Part shown: piece by piece, positions 22,918 through 62,187 of the stretch
Layout of the letters: every line of letters begins with the position of its first letter
Numbering within the stretch: position 1 is the first letter of the stretch
Origin: Sphaerolaimus hirsutus
Lineage: Eukaryota > Nematoda > Chromadorea > Monhysterida > Sphaerolaimidae
NCBI GenBank assembly: GCA_964036195.1
Contig: OZ038459.1
Span: 1,733,206 to 1,797,205 of the forward strand
Length of the DNA: 64,000 bases
Direction: 5' to 3'
The notes under the pieces: generated by a model
What the model was told of the DNA's origin: nothing
Database searches by the model: none
The model's input: only the letters and a program-made list of their open reading frames with translations
Position numbers and translations under genes: made by a program

Positions 22918-25509
22918 CTGGCGGGCACTCCGGAGCACTGTAAATGACCTGTTATGTCATGTCAAGTGTCAAACGTCATGTAAAATGTTGTGGAAAATGG
23001 TAAACTTTTTTGTTTGCCATTTTTCAGTGCATTTTACATGACTTTTTACACTTTGGATGACATTTGAAATTTTCCAGGGCATTTTACATTACTTGATGAC
23101 AGACTTTGCGTGACATTTGAAATTTTTCACTGCATTTTACATTATTATTAACAGTTTGGATGACATATGATATTTTCCAGGGGATTTTAGATGACTTGAC
23201 ACACTTTGCATGACATTTAACATTTTGCAAGGCATTTTACATGACTTTTGACACTTTGGATGACATTTCAAAGTTTCCAGGGCATTTCACATGACTTGAC
23301 AGACTTTGCGTGAAATTTGTCATTTTGCAGGGTATCTTATTTACCGTATTACCTCGAATACTCCCCCCTTTGAATTAACCCCCCCCTCGAAATACCCCCC
23401 TAAAATTCGGCTGAGGAAATAATAACCCCCCCCCCTCGAAATACCCCCCTAACATTGAGTGTAAAGAGAACGTACATGACAAATACCGCAGTTTGTGATC
23501 TGTACAATGCAGAACACACGTTAAGACTGATGATTGAGCGATGTTAGGGAAGGATTTATGTGTAACTACAGTTATATATGGATATGCCTAAAAACACATA
23601 TACATCTATGTAATTGCTTGATTTTTCTACGTTTGAGTATGCGGAATTTCTGAAAATTTCTGGCGAAATAATAGACCCCCCCTCGAATAACCCCCCCCCC
23701 TCCCCCTCGAATCATCCCCCCCTCAAATTTTGCTGGCGAAATAATAAACCCCCTGGGGGTATTTCGAGGTAATACGGTACATGACTTTTGACACTTTGCA
23801 TGACATTTGAAATTTAACAGGGCGTTTTACAGGGTCTGGGAGTGGCACCGGTTCTTCCATTTGTCGAAATCGTCGGACGAGTGAAGCTCTTCGGCGGACG
23901 GCAAGAACGGTGTTTTGTCGGCTTCGCTGCGAGATATTTCGTTTTACTCTAAACTTTTGTTCGACTTCAACTTTCCTTCGATTACCGTATTTCTGTTTTG
24001 TAAAGTGAAAATGTCAGATAAAAATTGCCAAGTGTTGTTTATGTAACGTTTCATTGAATTAGGTAAATACCAGCGTTTTGATTTTATAATAGGAACTTAA
24101 TAGATAAGTTAGCACGCTATTTAAAATTTTGCAGCGTTCTGGATTGGCCCCGAGTAAAAATTGACACTTCAAAGGCCAATTCCAGCTCAACGTAAACACT
24201 CACAATTCAACATTCCCCACTAAAAAAAGCCGAAACTCTCAAAAACCAACTCTCCCAACAAGACTTTCCTATACGCCAGCAGCGCCTTGGTATTCGTCTG
24301 GGCTTGGGCGCCAGTTGGCTGGGGGCACTCCCAGACCCTGTAAAATGCCATGTAAAATGTCTAATGTCATGCAAAGTGTCTCAAGTCATGTAAAATGTCC
24401 TGTAAAATGGCATTAGCAAACAGGGAATTTTACATGACGTTTGACACTTTGCATAACTTTTGACATTTTACAAGGTCTGGGAGTGGCACCAGGTCGCTGC
24501 AGCAAGTCCACAGGCGCTCGCGGATCGTCTCCACTCGAGTGAATCTGCACCGCATGTCAGCCGACTCCCACTGCGGCGAGGCCTGCGTCAAGTGGTAAGT
24601 GACAAGACAAGTGGTAAGTGATAAGTGACATAAGGTTGCACGTGAAAGGCGAAATTTATGTAATGTGTTAAGTGAAATCCAAGTTGCACACATTCTGAGG
24701 ACAGTTGACTCTTAGTGCCAGCAAATTTGTCAAGTGCTGCGTGAGCCGTGAAGAAATGTAGTGCGCGGCAATGTGCAATACATTTGACTGGACATTTCAC
24801 ATTATCCAGACTAGATATGTAAAAAGCGACATGAGTTTGACACAAAGTGCCATAGCATTGGGTTGTTTCTGACTCCAGGCGCCAAGCGCCAATGGCACCA
24901 TGGGGCAGTAGCGTCAAGCGCCATACGTTTTTGATATCGCAGCGAGAGTGCGGATAGCGCCACGACACTTTTCCGAGTCCTGGCGCCAAGCGCCAATGAT
25001 GTCATGCAGATTGCGATTTTACATCACCATTATATTTCACCAATTTCACACTTTGCAGGGTTCGGCACATGCAGATGATCCAAAATAAACGATCTATAAA
25101 CCGCTAGTAATTCCAAAAACTCATTCAAATGCAAAATTGTCAACGCAAAAATCCATTCCCACCCAATCACCATAGCCAGATCGCAGCTGAACCCGGCGCA
25201 GCCAAACTCGTACTTGTGGGGCGTGAAGCGAATGTCGTTGGGCACGTACGTGCTGGGAGCAGTCCCGCACCCTGTACAATGCCTTGTAAAATGTCAAAAG
25301 TCATGCAAAGTGTCAAAAGTCATGGAAAATGCCCTGCAAAATGGCAACAGTTGCCATTTTGCAGGCATTTTTCATAACTATAGACACTTTGCATGACATT
25401 TGACATTTGACAGGGCATTTTACAGGGTCCGGGACTGGCACCTGGACATGCAGCGGAGCACCCAGGGGTCGCACTCGATCACCGCCGGCGCGGCCATGTT
25501 GTCGGGCAT
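22656..25509 (-). CDS. Single-pass membrane protein, unrecognised, split by introners
   Basis: Six exons (25442-25509, 25171-25252, 24490-24582, 24260-24318, 23849-23926, 22656-22917) join with consistent phase into about 213 residues. The N-terminal half has many cysteines (CDPWVLRCMS, GCAGFSCDLA, MRCRFTRVE, LWTCCSDL), suggesting disulphides. A polar stretch (EADKTPFLPSAEELHSSDDF) follows. One strong helix near the C-terminus (LGLLMWTMVIVLLALISAL) precedes CMYKRF. There is no clear signal peptide, so a 5' exon may be missing, or ATG 25509 or 25497 (strong context, AACATGG) is the start. I do not recognise the family. Three of five introns (25253-25441, 24319-24489, 22918-23848) are TIR-bounded elements that carry their own splice sites. 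The 3' end is unsure because the frame runs into another such element. Confidence 0.68.
22918..23848 (-). mobile_element. Introner enlarged by a nested MITE (931 bp)
   Basis: Minus sense: GTGCCACTCCCAGACCCTG at the donor; GCTCCGGAGTGCCCGCCAG at the acceptor. An ACCGTAT MITE (23341-23779) sits inside, in TACATGACTT-rich introner sequence. Confidence 0.82.
23849..23926 (-). CDS. Membrane protein exon 5
   Basis: Acceptor TATCTCGCAG; 78 nt encoding EADKTPFLPSAEELHSSDDF and DKWKN; the last two bases CG complete Arg across the next introner. Confidence 0.65.
24260..24318 (-). CDS. Membrane protein exon 4
   Basis: Starts after CCCCCAG at the introner's end with PTGAQAQTNTKALLAYRKV and ends in phase 2 before GTTGGG. 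Confidence 0.55.
24319..24489 (-). mobile_element. Introner: whole 171-bp intron is one TIR element
   Basis: Minus sense: GTGCCACTCCCAGACCTTG to GGTCTGGGAGTGCCC then CCAG. Interior: self-complementary ACATTTTACATGACTT-type repeats. Confidence 0.85.
24490..24582 (-). CDS. Membrane protein exon 3
   Basis: Acceptor TTGACGCAG; 31 codons from ASPQWESADMRCRFTRVE to LWTCCSDL, phase 0, abutting the introner donor. Confidence 0.7.
25171..25252 (-). CDS. Membrane protein exon 2
   Basis: Encodes TYVPNDIRFTPHKYEFGCAG and FSCDLAM, ending at GTGATT. The open frame continues, but base composition turns AT-rich, which marks the intron. Confidence 0.62.
25253..25441 (-). mobile_element. Introner: whole 189-bp intron is one TIR element
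   Basis: Minus sense: donor GTGCCAGTCCCGGACCCTG, acceptor GGTGCGGGACTGCTCCCAG, interior of inverted TGTAAAATGTCAAA-type repeats. The exon phases on both sides agree (AG joined to C). Confidence 0.85.
25442..25509 (-). CDS. Membrane protein exon 1
   Basis: From ATG at 25507-25509 (or the better-context ATG at 25495-25497): MAAPAVIECDPWVLRCMS. The last two bases AG join C of the next exon to make Ser. The donor is the first base of an introner. Confidence 0.6.
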
Positions 25510-27135
25510 CGGGCGGTGGCTGGGCGAACTTCAAAGGGCACGCCGAGGCAATGGCAGCGGAGTTTTCCCACAGACGATTTTTTTTTGACTTTTATATCTT
25601 TTTCCAAAGCTGAAAATTTCTTAAAGCACCCATCTGTGCAATCTGTGGTCGATTTGGCTAATTGCCAAGTGTCAATTTTTTGACGGTATGGTTTGAATTT
25701 TAAAACGGATCCACAAGCGTGCGTTTTTCACAAAAAATGTGGGCTCCTTCAAAAGCAATCGGCCATTTGGAATTGACAAACTGGGCCCTTCCTTCAGTCA
25801 ACTGAAATCCGTTTCAATGCACTTAACTCGGAAGACAAAAATAATTCTAGTTTTGATAGTGGACACTGTCAGAGACAAAACGTATCCGTTCATGAGAACT
25901 AAAACGTGGATACAAAATGTTTGGTGAGAAAATATTTGACAGAAGACCCAACATCTGGCCCCTTTATATTGGAAAGGCACAATATCTTTAACACGTTTTG
26001 TCGCCCCAACCAAAAGATCACACCAAAAAAGTGCACGTTTTTCCAGACCGCATCCTGTCAACTCCGGTGCCATTTTCTCCGCGAACTAGTTCCCAAATTC
26101 GCCCAGCCACACCGGCCAACTGACGGTGCCGTGGAGACAATGAATTGCCGAAATCACTGGCAAAAACAGGGTGAGTACGGCTAGAAGTTCGCCAAACATA
26201 ATTTTGAGTTGACGGATAAGAAATAGAAAATAGCGATAGATAGGGTTAAAATAATGTATTCGTGGGATTATCCAAACTGAAGGTGGATGTTAGTCAGGAA
26301 ACGGGAAATGAATATTAGGTATTCTCCTTTGAGAAGCTACATAGTTATTGAAATTAGGTAGTAATCCTTTCAATTAAAATACTAAGCTTTTTAAAATTAA
26401 TAGGTAATTAATGCGGGGTTAAAGCTAAGCGCAGACACCATATTTTAAATGAAATATTTTAGTACGCCTTTGAACGCCTTGATATAAGTAATTAAAAGGC
26501 CATCAAAAAAATACGCCTTCAATGTGGTTGACACCAAACCCGACCCGACCCGAAACAGATACAAGCAAATTTTTGGACCCGAAAACAGATACCCGAACCC
26601 GAAAATTTGCAAGTTCCCAACCCCAAACATCGGCGCCTAATCCGAAAACGGATTTGCAAGGATCCATATTAACAAAACGGTATTGCCGAGCGGACTGCAA
26701 TCACGTGCAGTACTGCAGGCTTACCATAATGCCCATTTTACAGTATACACACAACGACATGAAATGTCAACTGGTCCCCATCCCAAATCGAAGTTTGCTA
26801 ACGAGCCGATCAACACCGTTCAAATGCAAATGAATTTGTAGTGTTTAATGTACAATGTACAAGGCTGGGTGGAGTATATTTACCTATATGTATACCGTAT
26901 ATCCTCGAATAAGTCCCCCGGGGAGTTATTTTTTCGTCAGTTTTTGAGGGGGAGTTATTTTTTCCTAATAACTTTTAGGAAAACTTGCAGGTATGTGTGT
27001 GTACACTGCGTAAAATACACACTGTGTATCTGCTTTCGCTGCTGTAGGCTAACATTCTTTTGTATTTTTTGTCTCACACACTACACTGCATTTCGTTTTT
27101 TTTCACTTGTTGCAGTATCTTCTCCACTCATCAGT

Positions 27136-27872
27136 AGGGTTCATACGATATATCGTATCGAATATCGGATATCGACCATTTTTTAATATCGAATATCGAT
27201 ATCGAAAATTTTGAAAAAATATCGAATATCGATATCGAAAATTTTGAAAAAATATCGAATATCGATATCAAATATCGACCATTTTTTCGATATATCGAAC
27301 CTGTATTGTGTCCCCAAATTTACCTTTCATTTTCATTTTGAGATGTTTATGGTTGATCTGATGTGCTTATAGTATTGTATTTGATGAGTAAAAGTACAGT
27401 ATTTACAATGTCATTGTTGTTGGAGTGCTAAATCTGAACCCAGAAAATGCTGATATACTTTTTTTTGCAACATGCCCTTAAGCAATTAGGTTAGGATGAA
27501 CTGTAATATCTAACAATTGTTATTTGTCTGATACACTTTGATTCATCATGTTTTTCTTCTATTTTCTACCATTGAGTGATGTAAAGCTTGTTAAAATAAC
27601 TCGCACCATTCAAATTTCAGTAAAGAGATGATTAAACATGTGTGCAACCACATGAAAATACAATATGCCACTTGAAATATGCCTTGCTATACCAAAAGCA
27701 TATCGCAATATCGAATATCGAAAATATCGAAATATCGAATATCGACCCTTTTTCAATATCGAATATCGAATATCGATATCGAGGTTCCATATCGTATCGA
27801 TATTGAATATCGAGTTTCAGGAAAAAATATCGAATATCGATATCGAAAAGTCATATCGTTTGAACCCTACTC
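27136..27872. repeat. Element with GGGTTCA ends filled with ATATCG repeats
   Basis: Ends AGGGTTCATACGATATATCG and CATATCGTTTGAACCCT are inverted; both flanks inside are arrays of GATATCGAATATCG. The inverse copy is at 47012-47738, with matching unique centres (GTGGTTGCACACATG region). Confidence 0.8.
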
Positions 27873-28640
27873 ATCAGAGAGGGGGAGTTATTCAAGGGTG
27901 GGGAGTTTTTCAAGGGGGGGAGTTATTTTTTCGTCAGTGCTTTTGAGGGGGGAGTTATTCAAGGGTGGGGAGTTATTCAAAGGGGGGGTCTTATTCGAGG
28001 ATACACGGTAATAGCATATTCAAATAAACTGTTGGAATTTAAATTTACACTTCATTCTGTATAAAGGAAACCATTGGTAAAGGAACTAGTATTTATTCAA
28101 ATTTCTGCAAGGCATCGGAGCAAAAAGTAGTGCACTTGACCAAACTAAAGACAACTTTTTGCCCAACTCGAGGCGAAATTTTCACCTGACCCAACTCACC
28201 AATTTGACTCGAAAATTTGGTAATTATCGACTCAATCGAGTTTGAAATACTCGACTTTGAGCCCGATTACACACGCGTAGCGTTAAGTAACCGAAGTACA
28301 CCATTTATTCCAAAACATACCAACCGTAATATTTAACCTCTCGAGCCCCCCCCCCCCTCCAGTGAAAGCCTTTTCCATGCATGTCTAAGTGAGTGGCCAG
28401 GGTCGCTTTTGCATGCAACGAATGAATTGTGACAAAGTGAAGGGACGGCGGCATGTGGGCATGTTGAATGGCCGCTTGCGGATGGTTACGTATAAATAAT
28501 ATAGGTTTATTTGATCATTCTGATTATAAATACATGCATACATGTGGGGAGGTTATTTTCGTGAGCCCAAAGACTTCCAAAGTCGAAAAAAGCGGTGAGA
28601 TCAAAAGGTCAAATTTTGACTGATTTGTCCGGGGAGATTT

Positions 28641-29249
28641 AATTGAGGCGTCTACTTCTAAAAGTCGACAAGTCCAAAATATGAAAATTTCGAGTTAGGC
28701 CCGGAAACGTCATCTGGGGCTACTTCCGCACATTTTTTAAAATCATTTTCCATAAAATTTTCCATATGGCAAAGTGCCAAATTTGACATTTTTGGGGAAA
28801 AATGCAAAACTTTCGGGCAAGAAGTCGACAAGTCCATTCCTCCGCTTCCTTTTTTATGGGAAAAAATAGCAAGAAATGTGATATGTCCACTATGGACAGC
28901 TACTTCTAAAAGTCGACAAGTGCATAAATTGCCCATAAGGCAGCCTCGGCCTCCCCGGGAACAAAAATGTTTGTAAGTGCAAGAAGTCGACAAGTCCAAT
29001 TCCCTCCCAAAAACAGTTTTGCTCTGACCGAATGGAAATTTATGGACACCAAATTTTTCACATAAAGGTTGAGAGCAGGGGCTGAAAATTTGACACTTTA
29101 TTGTCAACATATGGAACTTGATGGAAAGCATGAGAGAGCCAAATTGGACACGCACCACGGGCCTGGAATTGGGTCCGAATCTTAAATGCGATTTACTCAA
29201 AATCACATTTTGTGGACTTGTCGACTTTTAGAAGTAGAGGCCTCAATTA
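28641..29249. mobile_element. MITE with AATTGAGGCGTC ends, copy 2
   Basis: Same family as 12444-13099; carries TAAAAGTCGACAAGTCCA units in both orientations. Confidence 0.75.
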
Positions 29250-30267
29250 TATTTTTATTTGAGAAGAAAAAAAAATTAAGATTAGGTTGGAAAGAAAGTT
29301 CTGTCTGTTTCTGCTTTTATGCTCCGCTCTGCTTCGTTTCTATTTAGAACTGACAGAAATTTCTTTCCAACCTAATACCGTATTTCTTCTAATAGAAGAG
29401 CGCCGTTCTATTTTTTCATCAACTTTTTTACCTGCCATTCTATTAGAGGTGCCGTTCTATTGGAGCGAGCCCTTCTATTTTTTTCAACAATATTTTTCAG
29501 ACATTTTTCATTTGAACAGTGTTTTTAATGGAAAATGAATAACATTTTACTATGAGAGCATCAATTCAAACAAAATCAAATGTGAAAATAACCCTAAATC
29601 ATAGTTATGAACACCTTGGATGTCTTACCACCCATTTTCCTAATGTTTGGGTGTTCTGGCATTCTCTCAACGTAATTTACACCTGCCGTGCTATTGGAGG
29701 TGCCGTTCTATTGGAGGCTGCCGTTCTATATATTTCGTGAATGCCAAAAAGTGCCATGGATTACATTTTCTTTTTGAGAGATTTTCTTAAGTTATATTTG
29801 CTCAATTTTCTCATAAATAAAATATACAGATGTTTGATTAGATTTTCTCAAAATAACCATTTTTGGAATGATAATGCCATGTAAATGCTTACACTATACA
29901 TAGGGGTGGTTGATGCTTGCGCGGTTGCACTATGCGTCCGTGCCGCTTTGCATACTCAATGGAGTTATTGCAAGTCAATTTTATGTAATGAAACTACCTA
30001 AAGAAATGGATTTATTTCAATATATATGATTTTCAAAGGCAACACTACTCCACTGCGAGCACCTTTCAGCATTTTCAATGTGCATTTTATCGCATCACTT
30101 TTTAAGGGTCTCTTGTAGTTAAAGTGGCACTAAATTCTAATTACATGCATTCTTACATTCCATTAAAGGTTTCGGGTGTACTCTGAATGAAAAAACTTTT
30201 GTTTTAGCCATTATTTTATGCCTCTCAATAATGCTCAGATGACGTCATCACGTCAGACGGTGAACAT

Positions 30268-30540: not shown

Positions 30541-30696
30541 TGTACATACGAAGGGCGTGCTTCTAAAAGTACCGATCAACAAATTTTTCAAATTTGAGTT
30601 AGAACCACACTGATCGGGCGCCAACGAGCACTTCAAAAGCACCGCCGCACTCCGCCACACTCCGCCTCATCGATGCCTACCATACTCTTAATCGAC

Positions 30697-38333: not shown

Positions 38334-39215
38334 TTTGGTAGAATCTGGATTCTAGAGTGACAAGTTTTCGTGTTTTAGTGAACATCAGTGTACATCAGTC
38401 GCAGTCCCAACTAGGCGCACAATTTCCCATGTGTAAGGTAAAGCGTAAAGGAACACTGCGTAAAGCATGCAGAACGGAACAAACGCTTTACAAGAAATGA
38501 CACCGTAATTTGATGAATAAAGTCGCATGAAAAATCATCCATAAAATTCAAGCAGTGATAGTCATTGTCACGGTGCGAGAATCATATAATTTTGGCTATT
38601 TTTTCGATGGAATACGGTAGACTTCTACGTAAAGCGTGTGGCCACCGAATCGTTTAAGTGAGCTTTCGTTTCCGATTATCAACGGAAGTACCGTATTTCC
38701 TCGAAATACCCCCCCTCAAATATGAATTATGGCACTATGAATTTGTGGTCCCGGAAATGCATAACAGACGTTCAAAACACTTACTGTGTTACGTTAGCAC
38801 ATCGTTTATACCATCTACATCCTTATATAAGGCTGAAAAAACTTATAAATGGTGGTTATTGTTGCATTTTTCACGTTTTTCTCTCAAAATTTTCACTCTG
38901 AAAAAATAAACTCCCGGGGGGTAATTCGAGGAAATACGGTAGATATTTTACAATTACGCACGTATTTTGTCAAACTCCAAAGTTGATTTATCGCCAAATT
39001 AGTAAACAACGGAACTTCAGCAAACCGTTAGACAAACGGACAATGAAAGATTTATCCCGGAAATAAATGCAACCAAATATTTCTATCGTGATTCAAACGA
39101 TGAAACCAGAAGCCAGAAAATTAACGTTCTAAAAAGCGGAAAAATAAGTAATTGTACAGAAATAGCATAAACAGTAATTTGATCAGCCAAAATTCACAAA
39201 ATTTACGGCAAAAAT

Positions 39216-39296: not shown

Positions 39297-42200
39297 CTGT
39301 GGAGAATATGTTTGAAAAAAAAACAGCCAGTCACAATGTCCGGGAAGAAACCCGACAGTTTGTCGGGCAGCCCGAAAACGAGTCGGGCCAAATTACAGAA
39401 GCCCCCAGATACCACACACAGATTTACAGATGTTAACAAAAAGTCAATGTACCTTTCACATACACATTGACACTGGTGGTAGTTTTACTTGGTTTTGTGG
39501 CGGTTTCAATGCCAAAGCTTCTATTTCTGCATTCTACCATAAAACAATAAGCTGTGATATGTTACTGTTGTATTAAATATCTAGGTAATGTGCTTCCACA
39601 TACATTCATACCATGAAACATCACTCCCAATAATGTATCAACATCCTTTTATAACATTATTTATGTACTTTTCCATGCCCAACTTCACTTGAAGTCACAA
39701 ACATTTGACAAATGGTGATTTACATTATGAGTTGACATAAAAATTGATTTTTTTGTATGGAAATTACCACTTAAAACCCAGTTATTTTATTACCCGGAAC
39801 CGAAATTTTGGAAATTTTAGAACCGTAAGAACCGAACCGGAACCGAGCTTGAAAACCGAACCGAGAACCGGAACCGAAAATTTTGTGGAACCGAAAACCA
39901 ATAACCGAACCGAAATCTTTTGGAATCGAGAACCGGAACCGAGAACCGGAACCGAAAATTTTGAAAATCCCGACCCTAGCACCGACCCCTCTATCAAAGG
40001 CCACGTGCGCGCCAGCCTCGGCAGTGAGCTGCGACAGGGCGTGCACCACCCGCTGCAGCGGCTGGCCCAAGCGACATGCCAAGCTGTGCGCCTTCTTCAA
40101 GTTCCGCCAGAAGCGCTCGGCCACGTCCAACGACTCGTCGGGCACGCGCGCGCACTGCAACGTCCTGGCGCCAGTCGCAGACCCTGTAAAATGCCCTGTA
40201 AAATGGAAAATGTCATGCAAAGTGTCTAAAGTCATGTGAAATGCCCTGCATAATGGCAACTCGGTCGCCATTTTGCAGGGCATTTTACATGACTTTAGAC
40301 ACTTTGCATGACATTTGACATTTTACGGGGCATTTTACAGGGTCTGGGACTGGCACCTGAAAGCGAGCGCCGCCCAGCCAGCGCAGTCGCCGCGTTGCAC
40401 CAGCCAGTCGGGCCAGTACCGGCCGTCGAGCAGTGCCGCTGTCGCCGCGGCAGATAATTGTGCCGCCGCGGCAGATAATGGTGCCGCCGCGGCAGGTAAT
40501 GGCGCCGCGGCGGCAGATAATGGTGCAGTCGCGGGAGGTTCGTTTGAGACCGACGTGCCTTGGTGCGCCGTTTTGACTGGAGAGACTTGCGCTGATTGGT
40601 TGGCCGTGGTTCGTACGGTGGATGGACAACTCTGCGCGATGAAGGGGGGATTGCGCCTGGGCACTAAGGACAAAGGCAGGTTGCGGGTTAACGACACGGT
40701 CCAGAATACGCAAAAGTGAAATGGGAAATGGAATGGGAGGCGGAAAATAAAAGAATAAAAGTTGACAAGGAAATGCTTAAAAAATTACTAAAATTAGAAA
40801 TCAATTTAAATTATAAAATATTTTTTCAAATATCTAAAAAATTAAATTTGATTTTTTTATTTTAAAAATAAAATATTTTTAAACCATTTTCCTGGCCCCA
40901 GCCCAGACCCCTTTCCTTCTTCACCATTCGACCCTGGCAAAATCCCAACTTCAAAGTAGGGCTAACTTGATTGAACACGTCCACAGCTACAGTGAGCTGG
41001 CGCACGAGCGCGGCCACAGCACCCTGATCGTCAAGGGAATTGTGAAGGCCGTCTGCTGCATTCGGACAGTGTTCTGTTTGCACGGCTGCACTGCATACAG
41101 ACGCCTGGGCGAAAAGTCGAATGTGTTTTCATGCGAAATTGAAATGTGAAGTTTAATTCAAAGACAAGGTGGTTGACATGCGAGTAAGCTGAATTTAATG
41201 CAATTTGGTACCCCACACGCTAGCTGACATCGACACCAAATGTCAACTGGTTCCGTTCCCAATTCAAAGCTTCCGTTTGAACGTCATTCGTCGGCTCGTC
41301 AGAAGTTTTAAATCGGGATCGGCACCAGTTGACATTTGGTGTCGATGTCAACTAGCGTGTGTGGGCCCTTTTAGCTAACGTTCGAATTGAATTTATCACC
41401 TGATGTCTATTCTCCGTATTGTCACGGTCGGCGGAAGGTTCAGCGATCACCAATCTTCTTTCAGGCGACGCCACACTGCAATTTTCCGCCGCCGCCGCGC
41501 TGGAATTTTCCGCCGCCGTGTCAGAATTCATGTCGACAACGAGACGCCTCCTGGGGGACTCCCACACCCTGTAAAAGACCCTGTATGGTGTCAAAGACCA
41601 TGTAAAATGTCGTGTGTCATGTAAAAGACAATGTAAAATGTCATGTGTATCCAAATCTTATTTTATTGTATCCAAATCTTATGTTTTTGTATCTAAATAT
41701 TCCAAATGTATGTCAAAAAGTTAGATTTGGATACAAACCATAAGATTTGGATACGATAAAATAAGATTAAGATACACATGACACTTTACAGGGTCTTTTA
41801 CATGACATTTGAGACTTTACAGGGTCTTTTACATGACACATGACATTCTACAGGGTCTTTTACATGACATTTGACACTTTACAGGGTCTTTTACATGACA
41901 CATGACATTCTACAGGGTCTTTTACATGACACATGACATTTTACAGGATTTGACAGTTTACAGGTTCTTTTACAAGGTCTGGGAGTGGCACCTGGTGCGC
42001 TTGTGCGCCGGCGCCGTTGCGCTGTCGCTGTTGTTTTCCGCCTCGAGCGCCTGCGCGGGTATACACTTTATTTTGAGAAAATACAAACTTTTATTTCACC
42101 GTAAAGGAATGAAAAAATGTGCAAATTTTTTGCGCAAACAATAAGATAACTAAATTACACTTGCGACAACTCTCGTAAATGTAACAAAGGCGAGGTACTA

Positions 42201-45200
42201 CGCGAGCTATCTCACATTCTCAGTAAACCTTTACGTAAAAACTTCAAATGCTGTGTCAATAATTAACTAGAAGCTTAGTTGACACACAGGAAATTTGAAA
42301 ATTCGTCTAAAAATCGTCACTTAACATACAAAACTTTACAGGGTGCAAATCAAACAAACCGGATCGCCGGGCATCGGAGTGTCTAATTCATCATTACGCA
42401 GTCTCCTTAATTCGGAGCGGCGCTGGGTGCAGTCGTCCTGGACAGTCCCAGACCTTGTAAAAAACCCTACAAAGTGTCATGTGTTATGCAAAGGACCCTG
42501 GGAAATGTGTCATGTTGAATAGCATGTAAAGTGTCATATTTATGAAAATCTTATGTTTTTGTATCCAAATCTTATGTCAAACGTAAGATTTGGATACAGA
42601 AACATAAAATTTGGATACTATAGAATAAGATTTGGATACACATGACACGTTAAAGGGTCATTTACAAGGTCTGGGACTGGCACCTGGGCGACGCTGCCGG
42701 CCGAGCCGAGCTTGCACACGCGCTGCTGCCGATTCTGTTGCTGCCGCCGCAGCACGGCGAGCGCGGCCGTTCGCAGCGCCGCCTTCGATTGAGCGTTGTT
42801 CGAAGTTTCGGCAGAGTTTGCCGCCGGCGACAAGCTGCCGCTGCCGCTGCCGCTGCGCGGCCGTCCGGAGCGCAGCCAGTGGCCGCGCGTTTCTGTGGAG
42901 GTGTTAATGAATTTGAAATTTTTCTTCTTCAAATTTTCGAATTTTCCACCTTAATTTGACACAAATTGCTCGCGTGGGGTGGAAAGAGGCATGTTTGATT
43001 TTACTGTGACTTTCACACAACCGAAAATCAGACAAAAGAATTCAAATTATTAAACATACAACCCCCACTGCGGCTCTGGATTTTTTTATATTCTGGAAAT
43101 AATTTTTAAGTGCACAGTGCCATTATTGGATGAGCGGAAAGTTGTATACTGGTGGGACGGAACGCTATACAATGATTGATACCAGTGGCGTAGCCAGGGG
43201 GGGGGCGGGGGGGGCGGCCGCCCCCCCCCCTTCCGGGGTGAGACTTAAGAAATGTTTGGAAACGTGTTCTGGTGCAACGATTTTGAGGTCAATTTGTAAA
43301 AATTTTGCGCGCAAGCGCGCATTTTGGCGTCAATTGACAGCCATTTTTCCTTTACAGGTCGCGATAACCTCAACTTACGTGAAAATGCACTGAAACACTT
43401 CCATGTCGCTGTATATGTAAACACCTTCCCGGTCACGTCCGGCAGCCATTTTTTGATTTTACTTCTTATATCCTATCCCCAGTTCTACGGCGCCCCCGAG
43501 ACTGAAACTTGGGGGATATATTGGCGCAACCCCCCTCTACTTCGCATGAATTGGGGGGGTCGCGGCGACCCCTCTCAGGGTGGGTCGCCGCGACCCCCCC
43601 AATTCATGCGAAGTAGAGGGGGGTTGCGACAATATCTCCCCCAAGTTTCAGCCTCGGGGGCGCCCTAGAACTGGGGATAGGATATAAGAAGTAAAGTCAA
43701 AAAATGGCTGCCGGACGTGACCGGGAAGGTGTTTATGTAAAATACATACATATACAGCGGTCTTTGGCGCCAATGGCACCATGGCATGGCGCCTACGAAT
43801 GGCGCCAGCGCCATGGCGCTACTACCCTACTACAGCGGTCGAATTTTAGGGGGGGGGGGGGGCGCCGCCCCCCCGTTCGCAGGGCTCCGTAAACAATCCG
43901 CCCCCCCCGCTCAAAAATCCTGGCTACGCCACTGATTGATACTATTTTTGATGAATAAGGTCACGTGAAAAATTGCGAACCAAATTCACCCGTACTGCAG
44001 CAATGTGGTGTAACGAAAATTAAATTCCCACTGTTCGTTTATTCAGATCGGATACGGTAGATTTATTGTAAGGTGTGACGTCGTAGACCATATCAAATAA
44101 ACACAGGGGCCAGTTTGGGTGCACAACCTAATAATACCTAAATATCAAGGAAGATAAATATATCTTGGTCAGCCCCCACGTGTCAGTTTTCTCCTATATA
44201 CCGTAATCAATCTAAAGCTATGCCATATAGCGAATAAGAGGTCAAAAATCGCCAAAACCCTTTCACCTTTCTGTTTCTTTTTGCTAGACTCATCGACAAG
44301 TGCAAAAAGGGAATCTTCCATTTCCGTCCCATTTTCATTATTCCCGTTTTGTTCACGGCCGTGTCTTCTAGGTGATGCGTTATTTTGCTGCGAATGTCAA
44401 AATGCGCACATATTTATGAATTCAAATTGTGAATTGAGACCAATTCCGCGAGTGGACCAGTGACAAGGGAACTAATAAATATGGTGAAAAGAAAACATCT
44501 CAGTGACGAACTTTCTTATCAATCAATTTACTTGTCATTTATAACTTGACTTGACATTCCATATACACCTCTCTTGTCACTTGTCAACTTGAGGAACTGT
44601 CATTTACCGCCATCACTCATACCGGATTGTCATCAGAATTATCCGCCGCCGCAGTGCCATTTTGTCTTTGAATTTGAGCCCTACGTCCGTCAAAATTACG
44701 CAACTTTCGCACATCTTTCACGTCGCGATCCGCAGAACTGGACACTTCGGATGTGAAAATTTCGTCAACAGGTTGAGGATCATTGTCAACATCACGACCA
44801 TAGTTCGCAATTTTCTGCCGGTGTTTCGAACGAGTGGTCGGGGTTGACTGAATAAGTAGAGATTTTATCAAATGGCCATTGTAAGGGGTCTCCAGCAGGG
44901 TTGGCAAAATCTCAGAAAAGAATATAAAAAATATAAAAAATGGAAAATTGTTGATTAAAATAAAATAAAATAAAATGGAAAATTTCAAAATAAAAATAAA
45001 AATTGTATAAAAATTCGAATTTTTGTAAAATTTAAGTAAAATTTTATAAAAATTCGTATTTTTGTAAAATTGTATAAAAATTCGTATTTTTTGAAAAATT
45101 TTTATCTTGTAGCTTGAGTTTCTGCCTGTTTATTCATAGAGCTGGGGGCAGTCCCAAGCTTTGTTAAGTGTCAAATGTCATGTAAAATGTCATGCAAAGT

Positions 45201-52303: not shown

Positions 52304-52319
52304 CACACACACAGTAATC

Positions 52320-53423: not shown

Positions 53424-56400
53424 CTGAGTTTGGGGGGGTGAAATTGGGTTTGGGGGGGGCGGGTTTGGGGGGGGGGGGTGTATTGTTGTTTGGTTCACTG
53501 ATTGTGGAGTTTAAGGTGAAACCTACCATATTGATATGACGTCGAAATTAGGGATGGAAAAAACGTGTTTTTTTCCAACGACCCAGTTGAAAACAACAAC
53601 AACGTTTTTTTCATAAAACCGTTTTTTCAAAACCTCGCAGATATGGCTATGGGTCAACATATATACTTATATTAAAAGCCATTTAAAAACCCTCGGCCAT
53701 CCGTAATCGAAATTAAACACAGTTTCTTTTCACATTACGACACGCTCGTTGTTTGTGAATTTGCAGCACTCTTGGCGCGGCCGTATTCGTCAAAATAGGG
53801 TAAAATTCTTTGTATAGCGTCTAATTTAAACAGTAAATGATGGCTATCCTGATTACGATCTCAGACAATAATAAATAAATATAACTATTTGTTTACTATT
53901 CATAAAGGATACGGTAGATATCAGTACGGCGTGTGCAGTCACAGTTACCATATTTTCATGAATACAGTCACGTGAAAGATTGTGTGAATGCCGCGAAGTG
54001 ACAAATTTCAATGTTTGAAATATATGCCAAACGTTTCGATTCCTTCTACAGGCACACGTAAAGTTTCACATTCCCAAAAAGCGATCACCCGAACCTCGCA
54101 ACTTAACCCAAACCGAAACTATCAACATGACAGCAGGGTTCGCCTAAACTCGCACCCAAACCAATCAAAACCCCCCAAAAACCCCACCCACCTTCAAACC
54201 GAGCGCGATCAAGCCATACCTCAATCTAAACTGCTCCACATCATACAGCAGACAAGTAGTGCCCACGGCGGGCTTGCCCACCACGGGGCAGCCCTCGTCC
54301 AAGCCGGGCACCTTCCACAGCAGGCACGTGGTGTCGATCACCGCGCCGAAGATTATGGGTGCGGGGATGTAGGCCAGCACGCGCAGCATTACGACCTGGG
54401 GGGGGGGTGGGTGTAGGGCGCCGGTAGGGCGCGGAAATTGTGCGCGCCTTAAGGCGGTTTTAACGATTTTTTAGGGATGTCGATATTTATTTGATTTTTT
54501 GAGAGTTGTAGCGGGTTCGCGGGGGTTCAATATATAGGCTTTTTCAAGGTCTGGAACGTACACGGGGAGAAAAATCGCTAGAAATAGAAAAATATAAACT
54601 ATAAACTGAAAATAATCATTTGATAATCATCAGTGGAAAATATAAACTATAGGTGACTAAATATAGGTGACTAATCACATATGTAGCCAAAAATAGTTGA
54701 AAATAGGCAATAATTCAATATGCAATAACAAAAATTTTGTCTCGGAATGTATCGGTAGCACGAGCGTTTCGGGGGTAACCCCCAGCAACGCCCCAGAATT
54801 TCGTCACTTGTCCACTTGCAGAAAATTCACCAAATCTTCCACAAAATAACCCCAAATCACCCCCTTCAACCCACCTGCAACCCCAAGGCAAAAGCCTTCT
54901 GATCCTCCGTCACAGCCCTCAAAGTGACCATGATCAAGGGCATCTGGTTGAGACTGGCGCACAGGGTCAGCGCGAACAGAAACGCGAAGAATGGCACCAT
55001 CATGGCGCAGTCGCGCACGCACGCGCCTAATTCCGCGTCGCCCATGGGGTCCGTTGAGAGGGCTTCTGCCTGTGTTGGGGGGGGGGGTTGGGGGTTGGGG
55101 GTTCACAGGGGTGATGAAACACTTTGTCAAGTGACAGGGTCAGTGCGGTGTTATTAGTGCGCTTAGCAATGAATTATGCCATAGTCGATAGTGGCAAAAA
55201 AACCTAAACATTTTCCTCTTCGCAAATTACATTGCTCTTACGGGTGAATTATTTATTCATCAAAATACGGTAGTATTCCCTGTACGGTATTCAGTCTAAT
55301 AAGTGTGGATGGCTTTTCAAATCGAGAATTGATTCAAAAATAAAAAAGGATTGTAACTAACCCAACCGGTGCCCAGTGCAACGCGCGCAGGCTTGGTCAT
55401 GTTTTCGGGAATGCACGCGCAGTCGCGGTAATTCTGCAACGAAACGCACTAAATTCATATGTTTACGTTCGGTTATATTCCAGCAACAGTAATCAATTTA
55501 CAAAACTTTGCAAAATATAGACGAATAGAATCAAACGTGATTTTTTTATGTGAGCAACAAATCTGGGGGATTTATCAGCTGAACGCAAAACTTTCTATAC
55601 AGATTCAATCGGTACGTCAAATTTCCCGCCACCTCTTACATAAAATTGTTTCAAAATAAAAATTCCTGCACGAAATATATTGACGTTCCTCGTGCTCTAC
55701 GTCGCCTTTTTCATCATAATATTTATCTGGTTTTTATGAAAGTGCGTACATAAGTATCCCGGTCGCGCGTGATCAACAACGACATAAGTAATTTTGAGCG
55801 CATACCTCGGGCCGCCTAGTCTACAACCCCCCAGACCCCCCCACAAACCCCCCCCCCCCAACTTACCACCCTGGACCTGAACACGGGCCCGGCCAAGCTC
55901 GGCTTAGCCACGGACTGCGTGTGCACCGTGGTGCAGCCAGCGAAACAGGGGCTGAAATAGGTTCCTGCCGTCGCGGCCGCACACCGGCTGGTATTCGTCC
56001 GGCGAGCAGTGGCAGTCCAAGTTGCACGGCACCGATAGATTCACGGTCGATTTTTGCAGCAAACTAGGGGGTTGGGGGTTTTGAAGGGGTTTTAAAAAGG
56101 GGGGTATAATCGGGCGGCGTTGTTTAGCCATGATTTGCGTAGAAATTCGTCGGGAAAAATTGAACAAATTCAAACCCGTTCAATGCAATTTGCTGGCGAT
56201 TTACGCGTTCGACAACATTACACAGTGATTAGCTCAAACGGCGGGATACAGAACGATGTGGCGATGGAAAAGCCAAGTAAAGGTGGCCCGCACACCAGTA
56301 GAAACATAAGTGTCAACTGGTCTGCGTCAACTCAAATTTCGGCAGCAAATGTCGCAGAGTAGTGTTCCAATGCCACTTAACATTTATGTTTCAACATCGC

Positions 56401-59400
56401 CGCAAAGGCCTTTGAATATCGCTTTAGACACGTGAAGTCGAAATCTGAGTTGACAGAGACCAGGGGGCAGTCCCAAGCACTGTAAAGTGTAAAGTAAAGT
56501 GTCAAGTGTAAAGTCAAATGCAAAGTAAAGTGTCAAGTGTAAAGTCAAATGCAAAGTAATGTGTCATCCAAAACAAAAAAGAAAAGATTTTATTACTGAA
56601 CTTTGCATGACAATTGACAGTTTACTTTGCATTTGACTTTACATTTGACACCTTACTTTACACTTTACAGGGCTTGGGACTCCACCAGTTGACACACGTG
56701 TGTCAAGTGCGCGCCGCCAAAAAGGGACGGTCTACCGCCAAGCTAAACCGTCGGGAAAAAAATCAAAAAGAACGTGGCACAAACTTTTGCAAGTCCTTCA
56801 AATCCTGGAGATCGCCATAGTCGCGTCTCGTGTACGGCTTGAATTTGCCCACCAGATCCAAATTTGCGCAGCCGAAAAAAAAGAAAAACGCCAGCATAAA
56901 CAGGGCCAAAATGTTGAAGCCCATCATCACTGCGGGCGGTGCGACTCAGCGTCGGCTTGTATCTGCAAATAGACAATTCTGCATTTATTCTGCCCATGCA
57001 AAATATTTAATTAAAACGCTGTGTCGCAAAAATTACCTGCGGCATGGGTCTTCAATGGAGGGTGCGGGGATGGCGGTCCACTTGTACGCACAAATGCCTG
57101 GTACGCACAAATGCCTGGTACGCACAAATGCCTGGTACGCACAAATGCCTGGTACGCACAAATGCCCGGTACGCACAAAATTGTGCCCGCCACGCACATC
57201 TGCCCGGTACGAAATGACATTACATTACATTTTGACCAAGGACGTAGCCAGGGGGGGGGCGGGGGGGGCGGCCGCCCCCCCCTTCCCGGGTCGGACAAAA
57301 AAATATGCCAGAAATGGCACTTCCGTAAAGCGATTTTGTCAGCAGTTCGGAAAAATTTTGCGCGCAAGCGCGCATTTCGTTCCCGGTCAGTATTTTTCCT
57401 TGATACCTATAGTTTAGGACAATAAAACGGCTCAAAATGGGTCGCCGTCGCTGTACATGTATGTAAAATACATACACGCACAGCAGTATTTGGCGCTAAC
57501 GCCAACGCCAATAGCGCCATGGCGTGGCGCCTACGAATGGCGCTGGCGCCAAGGCGCCATTCCTGTACCACAGGGGTTAAATTTTAGGGGGGGGGGGGCG
57601 CCGCCCCCCCCGTTCGCCGGGCTCTGTATACAATCCGCCCCCCCCGCTCAAAAATCCTGGCTACGTCCCTGATTTTGACCGTGTTTTTCACATCACACTT
57701 GTGAGTGAAGTGAAAAAAAGTTGCGCAATGACATTAGTTAACTTTTTGTCACTTCACACATACTCGAACATCACTTGAAAAAGTGTCAAGTGAAAAAACG
57801 GTGGATAATGGCTATTTTTGACCGGTTTTTTTTCACTTGACACTTTTTCAAGTGATTTTCAGATATCAGTGAAGTGAAAAAAGCTGTGCAATAACATTAG
57901 TGACCATCTGTCCGGTACGCAAAGATCATCAGCCATGTAAGTTACCGGGCAGATGTGCGTGGCAGGCACAATTTTGTGCGCACCGGGCGTTTGTGCGTAC
58001 CAGGCATTTGTGCGTAGCAGGCCTGACCCGCGGGGATGGGGGTACCCCCTAGGGTTGGCCGATTTTTTTCAATCGTTTTTAAAAAACCCGTATTTTTGAC
58101 CGATACCAGACAGTGCCGACACTTTTTTGAGTCGAGCCTCGATACCGGCACGAAAATTGTTATTCTTCGCTACCGAAACCGCAATCACTTTAAACACCCC
58201 CTTACCTCTTCAACAAGAAACTGCCGAGCGAAATGCCGACAATGGCGCCGGGCACCGCGATGCTGCCGGTGAGCAGACTGGCCTTGGATTTGCTCAAAGC
58301 GAACTGCACCTCGAGATATTTGGGCAGATATGTGGTGAAACCGCTCACGATTGCCAAGTCGCAGCACGCGCCCAGCGAGGATAGAATGTACACGTGGTTC
58401 ATTAAGAGACGCATGATGTGGCCGGGTATCGCTGCAAAGGGCAGTCATGGTTTGGCGGCAGTGTTCAAACGGGATCCCGATCCCGAATCCCGCGAAATTT
58501 CGGTATTTGACAGTTCCGATCCCGATCCCGAAATCTCAGAAAAGCCAATCCCGAACCCGTAATTCAGGACATTTTTCAAAATGCCAATCCCGATATCATA
58601 TGTGGCATGGTAAATTTTTAAAATGGAGAGGTGCGTAGATAGAACTTGATTAACAAACCTTTTTTGAAAAAAAGCAGCATAAAACAGAATCGATTTCTCA
58701 TCTCAGCGCGCACGCATCGAAACTCCGCCCACCCCCCCCCCCAAAAAAAAACAGCCTTCTCAGGTTCCACAAAAACAACCCCAAACCAATATCAAAACCA
58801 AAACGCACTTCTAACTCCGCCCCCCTGTTTCTCATCCGAATCGTCAGCCCCAATCAATTGATCATCATCAGCAAAGTGCACCGCGTTTCCAGCGTTTGAG
58901 CGGGGCGTCACGCCCGGGTTTACCTGCGGCCCGCCCGGTTCTGCAGCGGCGGCGGTCGCCGCGCCGCAGGAAATTGTCAGGCTGCCAGAAATTTGGGGGT
59001 TTTGTGTATACTTGGCGAACCGTGTGCTATGTATTTTTTGAATGGAACACTACAGCATGACGTCATTATAAATAGAATAAAACATTTAGATTTCAGGCGC
59101 GGTTGGCTGGTTCTCTTTTAGAATGTTTTTTTTTCTTTTTGAAATTGCGTACTATAGTGATGAAAAAAGTAGGGTTGGCCGATGTTTTTTTTTAAACGTT
59201 TAAAAAAAAAAAACGTGTTTTTTTTAAACATGACGTCCGAAATGTTTTGTTTTTTTAAAAAAACATCGGCCAAATTTTTTAGTACTAAGCACTAGGTATT
59301 TTGCAAAATTTTTGCGCGCAAGCGCGCAATTTCACACACAAATTGACATTGGTGGTTGTTTTCATTGGTTTTGTTGCATTTTTAGTATCAAAACATCCAT

Positions 59401-62187
59401 TTCTATGTGCTACCATGGGTGAATAAGCCGACATATGTTGCTGTAATATATAATATTGAGGTAATGTGCTTCCATGTACCTCCACAGTGTGTAACTTCAC
59501 TCCCAAAGTAACAACCTCCTTTTATAACCTTGTTTCATCAGCATTCCGTGCCAAACTTTACCTGAAGTCACGAACATTCGACTATAAGGCTATATACGAA
59601 TGATATGTCGACAAAAAATGGATATTTTTGTCACAAATCACAACTTATAATGCTATCCCATGGCTCCACAGCCATTATATGGTCATATTTAACATCACAG
59701 AGTATTGCCAGTGTCTGATATACCTATATATGTTGACACTAGGTCATATCTGGGAGCTTTTTAAAAAAAACGTTGTTTTTTTTAAAACATCGAGTGAAAA
59801 AAACGTTTTTTTTCCAACCCTAGAAAAAAGATACTTATTCCATCGATTTATAAAAATTTATAGACTTAAAATGAATCGTATTTCCAATTTGAGTCAATTT
59901 CCAAATGAAGATATCAGTTACCTTTGAGTTAATTTGTCACTTTACTGACGCCACCTACAACACTTTATTACCCACTTATAACCCCTGCCAGTTTTTCATT
60001 AACCCATATGTTGTCAATTGCCTCTGCATCAGCACATAATCACCCACAAAATACCTCCACAAGCACAAAACAAAACCCCGAAACTTACCCGGACGGGTCG
60101 TAGGCGCAGTTTGACTGGGGCGACTGGGCGGCCTCGCCGGACTGCAGCTGCATGGACGCGTCCGTCCCCGCCGGGCATTGGTCACGTGCCGCCGCCCCCT
60201 CGTTGGGCACGCTGTCCGCTGCGAGTGGAGAATGCGGATTTATGACAAATGTATATTATGGAATAATGGAGTGGACAGACATGACGCTATACAATGAATT
60301 ATACCATATTTTGATGAATTGCGCGCTATATTAATTAAAAGTGGGAGCAATTTTCTCAATATCTACCCGTTTATTCAGTTGGAATATAGTAGATTTCATT
60401 GTAAGCCTTTACTTCACTTGTAAGCATCAGTAGAGTGCAGGGACGTACGCAGGATTTTTGAGCGGGGGGGGGCGGATTGTATACGGAGCCCGGCGAACGG
60501 GGGGGCCCTATAGTAAAGATATTGAGCCATGGCGCTGGCGCCAATTGTAGGCGCCAACGCCATGGCAGTATTGGCGCTGGCATTGGCGCCAACGTCTACT
60601 ATATAGGTATCTTTATACTTATATAGTTTATACTATATTTCGTACTAGAATCATATTGAGTACCTTTCTAACGCCGTTAGATTCCGGAAAAATACATAGT
60701 AATCATTAGGTGGGTATTTGCGCGGGGGGGGGCGGCCGCACAATTTACACTAAATTTACACAAAAATGTATGCCTGCTTAGGTCAATGAATAAAATGAAT
60801 AAAATGACTGCATTGAATAAAATTCTGAACAGATTTTTTTTCGGTCAATTCAAGGCCGCAGAATTGGCAATGGCAACCAGAGTTGTTAAAAGTACTGAAC
60901 TTTTTTAAAGTAAACGTAAAGTATCTTTATTTTACTCGCACCTGAGTACAGAAAAGTATTTTACTCGAGTATAAGAGTACCGGTATTTTTTCGGGTATTT
61001 ACGCAGTACGCGAGTATACGTATTTATCGAGTAAACGTAAATACGTTTCAACAACTATGATGGCAAACCTACACGTGATATTCACAGCTGGAGGGCCGTC
61101 TATTTTGTTGCAGCCGGACTGTTTGAGCCGTTTCGGGAACCCGAAAAAAGGCAACGCGGCAAGGAGGTAGAGAAATCCGAGTAGCACAAACCCCGCCCAC
61201 CAAAGTCCTGCGCGGTTTGCAATGTGAATCATGATAGGAAATAATGAATTGCCAGTTAATTGGGGCTTAGGACCAATATTTAGTGCCTACACACACTAAT
61301 TGAGGGCCTTTGGTACATAAATCGAAATCAGCATGATTTTCAGTTGTTGTTTTTTCGAAATTGCCTTTGAAAATTTGACATTAGCCAAGTATGTAGGCAT
61401 TATTTCAGTAACGAGTCTATTCTGGCGGTTCAATATAAATATGGGGGTACTAGGTACAAAAATAAAGTATTTTGAGCATAAAATGTAAAAAATACACAAA
61501 ATCTACTCCACAACCTGGTTGATGCAGGTTGGGGGGGGGGGGGGATTGTACACCGGGGGGTTCACTTAATAGTAGCTGAAAATCCCCCTCGATAAATACC
61601 ATACCCCCGCCAGAACTTACCCACGAAGGCGCTCTCGGGCAAGTCGGCCGGCTCGGGGGGCACCACGTACTGACTGAGCATGAGCGCGCCCAGCAGGAAG
61701 CCGCACACGGGCCCCAGCGCCACGCACACGTACATGAAGCCCTGAGACACTCCCGGACCCTGTAAAGTGCTCTGGAAAGTGTCAAGTGTCAGGTAAAGTG
61801 TCTGAAGTGATGGGAAATGCCTTAAAAAATGGAAAAAGCGAAGTGAATTGAGAAGTAAAATGGCAAAAGCTAAGTGAGATTACTTTTACTTTTTATTTTA
61901 CTTCGCTTTTACCATTTTACTTGCCACTTCACTTCGCTTTTGTCATTTCACCTCGCTTTTGCTGTTTTACTTCTCACTTGTCCACTTGCGGAACTAGCAC
62001 CAGGGCATTTTACATGACTTTAGACACTTTTGCATGACACTTGACATTTTCCAGGGCACTTTACAGGGTCCGGGAGTAGCACCAGGTACAGGGCGGACTC
62101 GTCCTCGGACACGTGGTTGTCGATGTACGTGGTGCCCAGCGTGAAGATCGGGCTGCCACCGATGCCCAGCAAAACTTGCCCCACCAT
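53130..62187 (-). CDS. Organic anion transporter polypeptide (OATP/SLCO family), 5'-partial
   Basis: Twelve exons, in gene order: 62083-62187, 61621-61741, 61086-61207, 60089-60218, 58809-58981, 58206-58431, 56785-56962, 55867-56063, 55367-55433, 54875-55065, 54192-54395, 53130-53423. Family hallmarks are clear. They include LGIGGSPIFTLGTTYIDNHV (TM3-TM4); LWWAGFVLLGFL, which matches the OATP signature WxGAWWxGFL; SGFTTYLPKYLEVQFALSKS with KASLLTGSIAVPG (TM7-8); FFFFFGCANLDLVGKFKPYT (TM9); and a Kazal-like loop (CNLDCHCSPDEYQPVCGRDG ... YFSPCFAGCTTVHTQ). RVLAYIPAPIIFGAVIDTTC lies near TM11-12. OATPs are plasma-membrane uptake carriers for large organic anions. Two +1 frame breaks (near 56926 and 55962) interrupt otherwise intact exons. 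The first twelve-helix exons lie beyond the window. The first intron (61742-62082) is an introner. Confidence 0.93.
54192..54395 (-). CDS. OATP exon: IPAPI motif and TM12 start
   Basis: VVMLRVLAYIPAPIIFGAVI, DTTCLLWKVPGL ... YDVEQFRLRYGLIALGLK, phase 0, donor GTGGGT. Confidence 0.95.
54875..55065 (-). CDS. OATP exon: TM10-TM11
   Basis: Completes Glu, ALSTDPMGDAELGACVRDCA, FFAFLFALTLCASLNQMPLI and TEDQKAFALGLQ before GTGGGT. Confidence 0.92.
55367..55433 (-). CDS. OATP exon: end of Kazal loop
   Basis: NYRDCACIPENMTKPARVAL then GT, phase 1, donor GTTGGG. The CxC continues the Kazal cysteine pattern. Confidence 0.88.
55867..56063 (-). CDS. OATP exon: Kazal-like loop, with a frame break
   Basis: LLQKSTVNLSVPCNLDCHCS to VCGRDGRN, then one extra C near 55962 before YFSPCFAGCTTVHTQ and KPSLAGPVFRSRV; donor GTAAGT. 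197 nt is again one base too many. Confidence 0.85.
56459..56693 (+). mobile_element. Introner-family element in reverse orientation within OATP intron
   Basis: Plus sense: GGGGGCAGTCCCAAGCACTG to CAGGGCTTGGGACTCCACCAG; interior AAGTGTAAAGTCAAATGCAAA repeats. It lies between exons 56785 and 56063 and does not coincide with the intron borders. Confidence 0.6.
56785..56962 (-). CDS. OATP exon: TM9, with a frame break
   Basis: Starts RYKPTLSRTAR, then one extra base near 56926 shifts to VMMGFNILALFMLA and FFFFFGCANLDLVGKFKPYT. Both parts fit the family; 178 nt is one base too many for the flanking phases. The 3' border is uncertain (GTTTGT chosen). Confidence 0.75.
57067..58025. mobile_element. 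Element with tandem GGTACGCACAAATGCCT termini, nested insertion
   Basis: The left end has about six 17-bp units of GGTACGCACAAATGCCT; the right end has the inverse. Inside are CACTTGACACTTTTTCAAGT arms and a complete CAGGGACGTAGCCAGG element (57236-57675). Confidence 0.7.
57236..57675. mobile_element. CAGGGACGTAGCCAGG element
   Basis: AGGACGTAGCCAGGGGG and CCTGGCTACGTCCCTG ends; same interior blocks as 43183-43937. Confidence 0.75.
58206..58431 (-). CDS. OATP exon: TM7-TM8
   Basis: IPGHIMRLLMNHVYILSSLG, SGFTTYLPKYLEVQFALSKS and GAIVGISLGSFLLK; strong family match; donor GTAAGG. Confidence 0.95.
58809..58981 (-). CDS. OATP exon: intracellular loop
   Basis: Acceptor TTTCTGGCAG; LTISCGAATAAAAEPGGPQV, later HFADDDQLIGADDSDEKQ, then phase 1 at GTGCGT, which restores Thr with the next exon. 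Confidence 0.75.
59168..59822. repeat. AGGGTTGG element filled with TTTTTTAAACG repeats
   Basis: AGTAGGGTTGGCCGATGTTT at one end, TTTCCAACCCTAG at the other. Related fragments at 53547-53645 and 58049-58190. Confidence 0.65.
60089..60218 (-). CDS. OATP exon: intracellular loop
   Basis: Acceptor CCACTCGCAG; DSVPNEGAAARDQCPAGTDA to NCAYDPS, phase 2 before GTAAGT. The frame is chosen by the phase of the next exon. Confidence 0.7.
60440..60735. mobile_element. CAGGGACGTACGCAGG element, decayed
   Basis: GTGCAGGGACGTACGCAGGA start, TTGGCGCCAACG repeats, and a G-run followed by GGCGGCCGCAC near the other end. Confidence 0.6.
60870..61070. repeat. AGAGTTGTTAAAAGTAC element
   Basis: Inverted ends AGAGTTGTTAAAAGTA and CGTTTCAACAACTATG; inside are GAGTAAACGTAAAGTA-type repeats. 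It is inserted close to an OATP exon. Confidence 0.55.
61086..61207 (-). CDS. OATP exon: TM5 with signature
   Basis: Completes Gly, then LWWAGFVLLGFLYLLAALPF, FGFPKRLKQSGC to GPPA before GTGAAT. The phase to the next exon does not match, so the donor is uncertain or a small exon is missing. Confidence 0.85.
61621..61741 (-). CDS. OATP exon: TM4
   Basis: GFMYVCVALGPVCGFLLGAL then SQYVVPPEPADLPESAFVG, phase 1 before GTAAGT. Confidence 0.92.
61742..62082 (-). mobile_element. Introner (341 bp) with a second-family element nested inside
   Basis: Minus sense: GTGCTACTCCCGGACCCTG to GGTCCGGGAGTGTCTCAG. Inside, about 61835-62003, lies an element with CACTTGCGGAACTAGCACC end and AAGTAAAATGGCAAAAGC repeats. 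Confidence 0.85.
62083..62187 (-). CDS. OATP exon: TM3-TM4 region
   Basis: 35 codons MVGQVLLGIGGSPIFTLGTT to ESALYL, phase 0. The initial Met is internal. The donor is GTGCTACTCCCGGACCCTG of an introner. Confidence 0.9.

Follow-up and report, generated by a model that had tools for sequence, protein, structure and literature searches.

Results

The window, a 64,000-nucleotide stretch of Sphaerolaimus hirsutus DNA, contains three genes (A, B and C) in which we read seven predicted introns on the minus strand, and a single family of ~190-bp palindromic MITE (an inverted-repeat DNA transposon) lies behind all seven. Gene A carries three of these introners. At 25253..25441 the element (25256-25441) is followed by a duplicated 3' CAG (25253-25255) and the donor exon also ends in CAG; at 24319..24489 the element (24322-24489) is followed by CAG (24319-24321) with CTG on the donor side, a discordant CTG/CAG pair; and 22918..23848 is a composite of 931 bp with other repeats nested inside it, CCG on the donor side and a CAG acceptor. 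The three introns of gene B, at 42438..42683, 41551..41991 and 40165..40356, are all flanked CAG/CAG, the first two having shortened right ends and the third a nearly perfect hairpin. Gene C encodes an OATP transporter and has one introner at 61742..62082, between the peptides ..ESALYL and GFMYV.., with CTG on the donor side and CAG at the acceptor.

The first-pass annotation had described these seven introns as inverted-repeat elements that carry their own splice sites, and when all seven intervals were re-read on the minus strand their positions were confirmed. Each begins with GTGC[CT]ASTCCCRGACCYTGTAAA, the GTGCT version being that of 61742..62082 as annotated, and each closes with the inverted copy, followed by a run rich in C and then CAG. 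Element borders and exon borders coincide in seven of seven, and copies of the element carry a target duplication of 3 bp across the exon border. The frame is open through the junction in six cases and, as judged by eye, in the seventh (22918..23848), and more than one frame is open at some of the junctions. The claim about splice sites stood in part, as the GTGCC donor and the C-tract come from the element, while the AG of the acceptor belongs to the duplicated target triplet, a CWG target site duplication (TSD).

Joining the gene C exons that flank the introner (61621..62187, minus strand; limits approximate, set by eye) gave a peptide that matches the Pfam OATP family over residues 1-106 (E = 4.7e-34) with the junction after residue 35, and human OATP structures from the PDB align through the same junction. 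This is the one window intron of the seven with homology across its junction. For genes A and B no match to a Pfam family exceeded the cut-off, and their exons are therefore called from open frames.

Further repeats lie around these genes. A short copy of the element at 22623..22681 is on the plus strand, opposite to gene A, with a left end of CTG followed by GTGCCAGTTCC and a right end placed by eye; a diverged copy occupies 3876..4008 on the minus strand (left CAG, right CTG), and an unstranded member of a related MITE subfamily, with a AGTCCCAAGCCCTGTAAA core, is found at 56464..56686. A second MITE family (GTGCCAGTTCCGCAAATTGAGAAGTG...) has the same kind of GTGC end, with minus-strand copies at 7726-7961, 19797-20029 and beginning at 62000, the last nested in the OATP introner, and with others outside the window at L027:170 (minus) and L026:6671 (plus). 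Four of the five left ends found for this family follow CWG, and its copy at 20029, with CTG on either flank, interrupts an open frame that includes MTTDTGGEEL. C-rich repeats of the CCCCCTCGAATAACCCCCC type are present at 23352-23760, 21430-21810 and 38700-38980 as well as elsewhere, both in introns and between genes, and plus-strand exons at 3536-4969 resemble a 7-transmembrane receptor by eye.

The whole 348-Mb genome (762 contigs) was searched with the 16-mer of the left end of the element, allowing at most one mismatch, and this gave 10,244 matches (5208 + 5036) compared with 21 (7 + 14) for the reversed pattern as control, an excess that chance does not explain. A consensus built from 44 copies is 190 bp long and has terminal inverted repeats (TIRs), its palindrome being broken only at the central pair of bases and at positions 2 and 4 with the positions that mirror them. 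Positions 2 and 4 change GGGGC at the left end to GTGCC, a sequence of splice donor type, and at the right end the sequence is GCCCC, a run of pyrimidines. Folding of the copy at 25253..25441 gave -122.8 kcal/mol (z = -17.85).

We examined the flanks using copies sampled by their intact left ends on contig C1, drawing on 40 surrounding stretches, half of them 10 kb long and half 1.8-2.9 kb. Pairing of ends in these stretches and the window gave 56 elements, 48 of which have one GT-type and one other end, the remaining eight (two GT-type or two non-GT ends) being excluded. CAG or CTG is present on both flanks in 31 of the 48 asymmetric copies; this set was limited to copies in which CWG immediately follows the fixed right end, so that three window introns whose right ends are shortened fall outside it. 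The two triplets are concordant in 26 of these 31 (15 CAG/CAG and 11 CTG/CTG) and discordant in four CTG/CAG and one CAG/CTG, although one of the four CTG/CAG pairs (L030) was mis-paired and its true right triplet is CCG. A second pairing, of listed exact left and right ends 60-450 bp apart on C1 (with a right-end pattern that may also pick up GGGGC ends of related subfamilies), gave 13 CAG/CAG, 14 CTG/CTG, five CTG/CAG and one CAG/CTG, with 27 of 33 concordant (Fisher p = 2.5e-4); the skew of five CTG/CAG to one CAG/CTG is non-significant on its own (p = 0.22). This concordance indicates that insertion duplicates a CWG target of 3 bp. Some copies are located where no single frame stays open across the two flanks.

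The genome also contains a very abundant, near-uniform DDE_Tnp_4 (Harbinger-like) family spread over many contigs (example L052), and most of its listed matches exceed the length of the domain by ~190 bp and contain TGA stops, suggestive of an intron within the DDE domain. An autonomous NuwaI-type partner would be expected to encode a DDE transposase and a Myb/SANT protein. This commonest DDE_Tnp_4 family was considered for that role; in the one copy read (L052) the ends are not element-like, and no autonomous copy with the ends of the element was found. Contig C762 is mitochondrial (14,754 bp, 83% A+T; gene names assigned by eye), with nad2 and nad1 on the minus strand, cox1 and atp6 adjacent, atp8 not noticed and a CYTB frame that is broken near 8054-8211; COX1 fits code 5, with AGA/AGG mostly at Ser positions, and among its 120 best listed matches those that carry an organism name reach 64-67% identity and the others up to 89%.

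Outside the window, open frames and codon scores were tried as proof of coding and rejected as too noisy, the CTG junction of OSCP1, which is proven by homology, having scored non-coding when the 63-nt scoring window overran the exon end; coding calls are therefore based on homology. Altogether 24 joined peptides were run against Pfam, the ligand-gated channel twice. OSCP1 carries two introners with a composite intron between them, and residues 17-105 of the joined protein align with positions 1-89 of the Pfam Oscp1 profile (E = 9.9e-42) with zero net gap over both junctions. The cullin gene (CUL1) likewise carries two introners. Its first junction matches Pfam Cullin with E = 1e-9 and its second with E = 2.2e-5 (23.9 bits, under the cut-off of 33.2), and through this second junction human Cullin-1 (PTLTVYKESFES) aligns with ASL before and AVYRAAFES after the border, in a second stretch of 15.9 bits (the first stretch scoring 88 bits). 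A Srx-like GPCR placed 75 residues on 75 profile positions with zero net gap (E = 4.3e-5; 23.7 bits, the cut-off being 23.8), and a ligand-gated ion channel (L030) with an old diverged copy gave E = 1.5e-25 with a W that we supplied. Beyond the OATP, OSCP1, cullin, Srx-like and channel genes, no peptide among the 24 had a Pfam match above the cut-off. The first-pass view of a family spread over unrelated genes is thus upheld by homology in OATP, OSCP1, CUL1, the Srx-like GPCR and the ligand-gated channel, and by open frames in genes A and B. A search of the sampled DNA for empty paralogous sites returned eight spanning matches from four elements, none of them clearly empty.

In OSCP1 (L045:687-863), CUL1 (L062) and the Srx-like gene (L054) the copies have CTG on both sides and a right end of the GGGACTGCCCC form (the GGGAC variant), and their last 19 bases hold no AG. 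Exact excision from GT to CTG restores the protein, strongly so in OSCP1 and with Pfam matches below the cut-off in the Srx-like gene and at the second CUL1 junction. We infer that exact excision of CTG copies would make them GT-TG introns, able to mature to AG. The companion CUL1 junction (L063) has a right triplet of CAG and an exact GT-AG pair is available there. The follow-up set for CTG comprised 16 CTG places from 100 listed, and five of the 16 (L059, L064-L067) gave no right end.

Genic CTG copies might instead not be spliced at TG, and be recent harmful insertions that disrupt genes or segregate in the sequenced animal. Exact left ends across the genome follow CAG in 1180 cases and CTG in 972, and the lower number of CTG fits some purging; exact right ends, which may include some GGGGC ends of related subfamilies, precede CAG in 1083 cases and CTG in 716, the right end being richer in CAG than the left (chi-square p = 7.7e-4). 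Moreover, a sample chosen by intact ends is biased to young copies, and an open frame antisense to the CTG/CTG copy L055 hints that unspliceable copies may also occupy coding sequence (the frame is long, proline-rich, contains CPYC and is LITAF-like by eye, without a Pfam match). However, CTG/CTG copies are no younger than CAG/CAG copies, with a median divergence from the consensus of 0.094 compared with 0.086 and a median arm mismatch of 0.133 compared with 0.079 (14 and 11 copies, all <20% from the consensus), and CTG copies are found in the conserved OSCP1 and CUL1 genes with frames open on either side. On balance we consider that such insertions are a rather unlikely explanation. We read the counts as those of genic CTG insertions that persist, somewhat rarer than CAG, and whose acceptor copy may drift to CAG as the exon copy stays CTG; the window is in line with drift of this kind, its seven CAG acceptors including two behind a CTG donor side and one behind CCG.

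A further alternative is that CTG targets use some other nearby GT-AG pair (TTTTACAG within the element, the GGGAG found in the G variant, or an exonic AG or GT), with a few residues added, lost or replaced. In-frame and stop-free choices do exist near the OSCP1, CUL1, Srx and L031 junctions, as listed for up to the eight nearest per case with GT donors within 40 nt. Among those listed, the protein would change by +2, +3, +6 or +7 residues or by losses of 9 to 19 in OSCP1, by +4, -2 (residues replaced), -8, -10 and others in CUL1, by +17, -14, -18 or -20 in Srx, and by +1, +3, -1, -3 and others in L031. In the old channel copy (L030), splicing to a GGAAG acceptor would replace the conserved W with CAAR, by eye. 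None of the pairs listed near the OSCP1, CUL1 and Srx junctions leaves the protein unchanged, however, whereas the exact-excision proteins of OSCP1 and Srx match Pfam with zero net gap. Alternative donors also vary from gene to gene but GTGCC is constant, and the GGGAC variant of the three genes offers no AG near its end, all of which makes us regard alternative pairs as unlikely. Two CTG/CTG copies in long open frames, L031 and L049:1274, are of the GGGAG form and have an AG in frame 9 nt before the exon; because this AG keeps the frame they do not discriminate between TG and AG, and neither has a significant Pfam match.

With respect to splicing factors, searching with human U2AF1 revealed a well-conserved copy at C14:3032343-3038016, and a copy on the small contig C720 (101293-108657), possibly a haplotig, which scores almost equally and has different intron spacing. 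A third, divergent locus (G000:C16:15183255-15191469) is a candidate gene with 68% and 72% identity in two pieces and 38% and 53% in two others. For U2AF2 there is a single complete locus, plus fragments in other places. A ZRSR2 query matched the zinc-finger exons of U2AF1 only, which, in a search run without a positive control, is weak evidence of absence; likewise, no match to U12 snRNA was found in the 43 of 36,360 candidates scored, with control genomes silent too. In Fritillaria borealis, non-AG introns flanked by triplets are reported to occur together with a duplicated U2AF1 and a missing ZRSR2 (PMC13326754), and U2AF2 is also duplicated. There, 95% of introns are non-canonical, AG/AC and AG/AT being the commonest, and a YAY triplet often precedes the 5' splice site and almost always forms the last three intron bases. 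A border triplet repeat, a divergent second U2AF1 and a ZRSR2 that was not found are common to both species, although here the donors are GT, the acceptors AG or putatively TG, and there is one full U2AF2 locus (PMC13326754). The likeness between the two U2AF1 duplications is suggestive only.

Discussion

We are confident that these introns are copies of a non-autonomous, palindromic, CWG-target MITE, probably of the PIF/Harbinger-like (NuwaI-type) kind, that duplicates its target. Insertion into an exon at CAG would place, in order, the exon's CAG, the left end GTGCC, the right end GCCCC and a second CAG. GTGCC would serve as the 5' splice site directly after the C-W-G retained by the exon, GCCCC as a short pyrimidine tract, and the sub-terminal TTTAC, conserved ~20 nt upstream of the 3' end, could act as a branch point. 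At CAG targets the duplicated CAG would be the 3' splice site, and loss of the element with one CAG would give the exact mRNA, while for CTG targets an equivalent excision would depend on TG as the 3' splice site; as the acceptor is the duplicated target, a canonical acceptor would be immediate at CAG targets only. Such a TG site would be used less well, and sometimes a T-to-A mutation in the intronic copy only would improve it to CAG. CAG followed by G, with the border between them, is the classic proto-splice site, and a CWG-cutting transposase therefore suits the birth of introns. More tentatively, introns may arise at every genic CWG hit, those at CTG being true GT-TG introns, possibly hundreds of them, with TG as sole acceptor, perhaps via the divergent U2AF1, and a single T-to-A change converting them to AG.

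From the copy number and the target duplications we infer mass intron gain in this lineage. It is very improbable that a MITE landed inside introns that already existed and overwrote their ends, for although composite introns do occur (22918..23848 and the OSCP1 intron between its introners), element ends are exon ends in seven of seven and the 3-bp target duplication lies across the exon border. RNA-mediated spread through reverse splicing, as proposed for fungal introners, had no evidence in its favour here and is hardly credible given the TIRs, the CWG duplications, the many CTG-target copies and the copies without an open frame on both sides.

NuwaI elements, a PIF/Harbinger-like group of the PHIS superfamily, are described as having a CWG TSD and TIRs that usually start with GGG, and as occurring in animals only (PMC4482050). 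Our element is like them in its CWG TSD, G-rich TIR start and animal host, and its right end (GGGGC) fits the GGG start whereas its left TIR begins GTG (GTGCC), so that membership of NuwaI is no more than likely (PMC4482050). Introners themselves are a known kind, and DNA-type families with TSDs and TIRs and with shared recruitment of splice sites have already been described (Gozashti et al. 2022, PMC9860276), including one in Chrysochromulina where the element supplies the 5' splice site. The likeness extends to many similar TIR-bounded introns in which one splice site would be that of the element and the other would come from the TSD, but here we find a 3-bp CWG target, an almost perfect palindrome of 190 bp, some 10,000 left ends and an animal host (PMC9860276). 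Introner elements of Amoebophrya similarly have hairpin-forming inverted repeats, direct repeats of 3-5 nt at exon borders and non-canonical borders; Amoebophrya is, however, a protist with variable repeats, in contrast to the one constant family here (PMC7789003). TG 3' splice sites are documented in 36 human genes as alternative sites of U2 introns, whereas we propose TG as the sole acceptor at CTG targets (PMC2374985). Among the titles and abstract openings listed on introners, from an incomplete set of journals, there was no palindromic CWG-target family, and the one paper listed on introners together with Harbinger elements is fungal. What is new here is probably a CWG-target, palindromic, animal introner, probably with TG-acceptor introns.

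The origin of introns is a long-standing question, and introner bursts in animals have rarely been reported. The anatomy of this element shows a symmetric transposon gaining splicing polarity through two end positions. If the CTG copies are spliced at TG, they would amount to a natural experiment on a large scale, one that probes the strictness of the AG rule and the way in which the spliceosome adapts, and both intron birth and the subsequent improvement of splice sites would be legible directly in the genome of this nematode.
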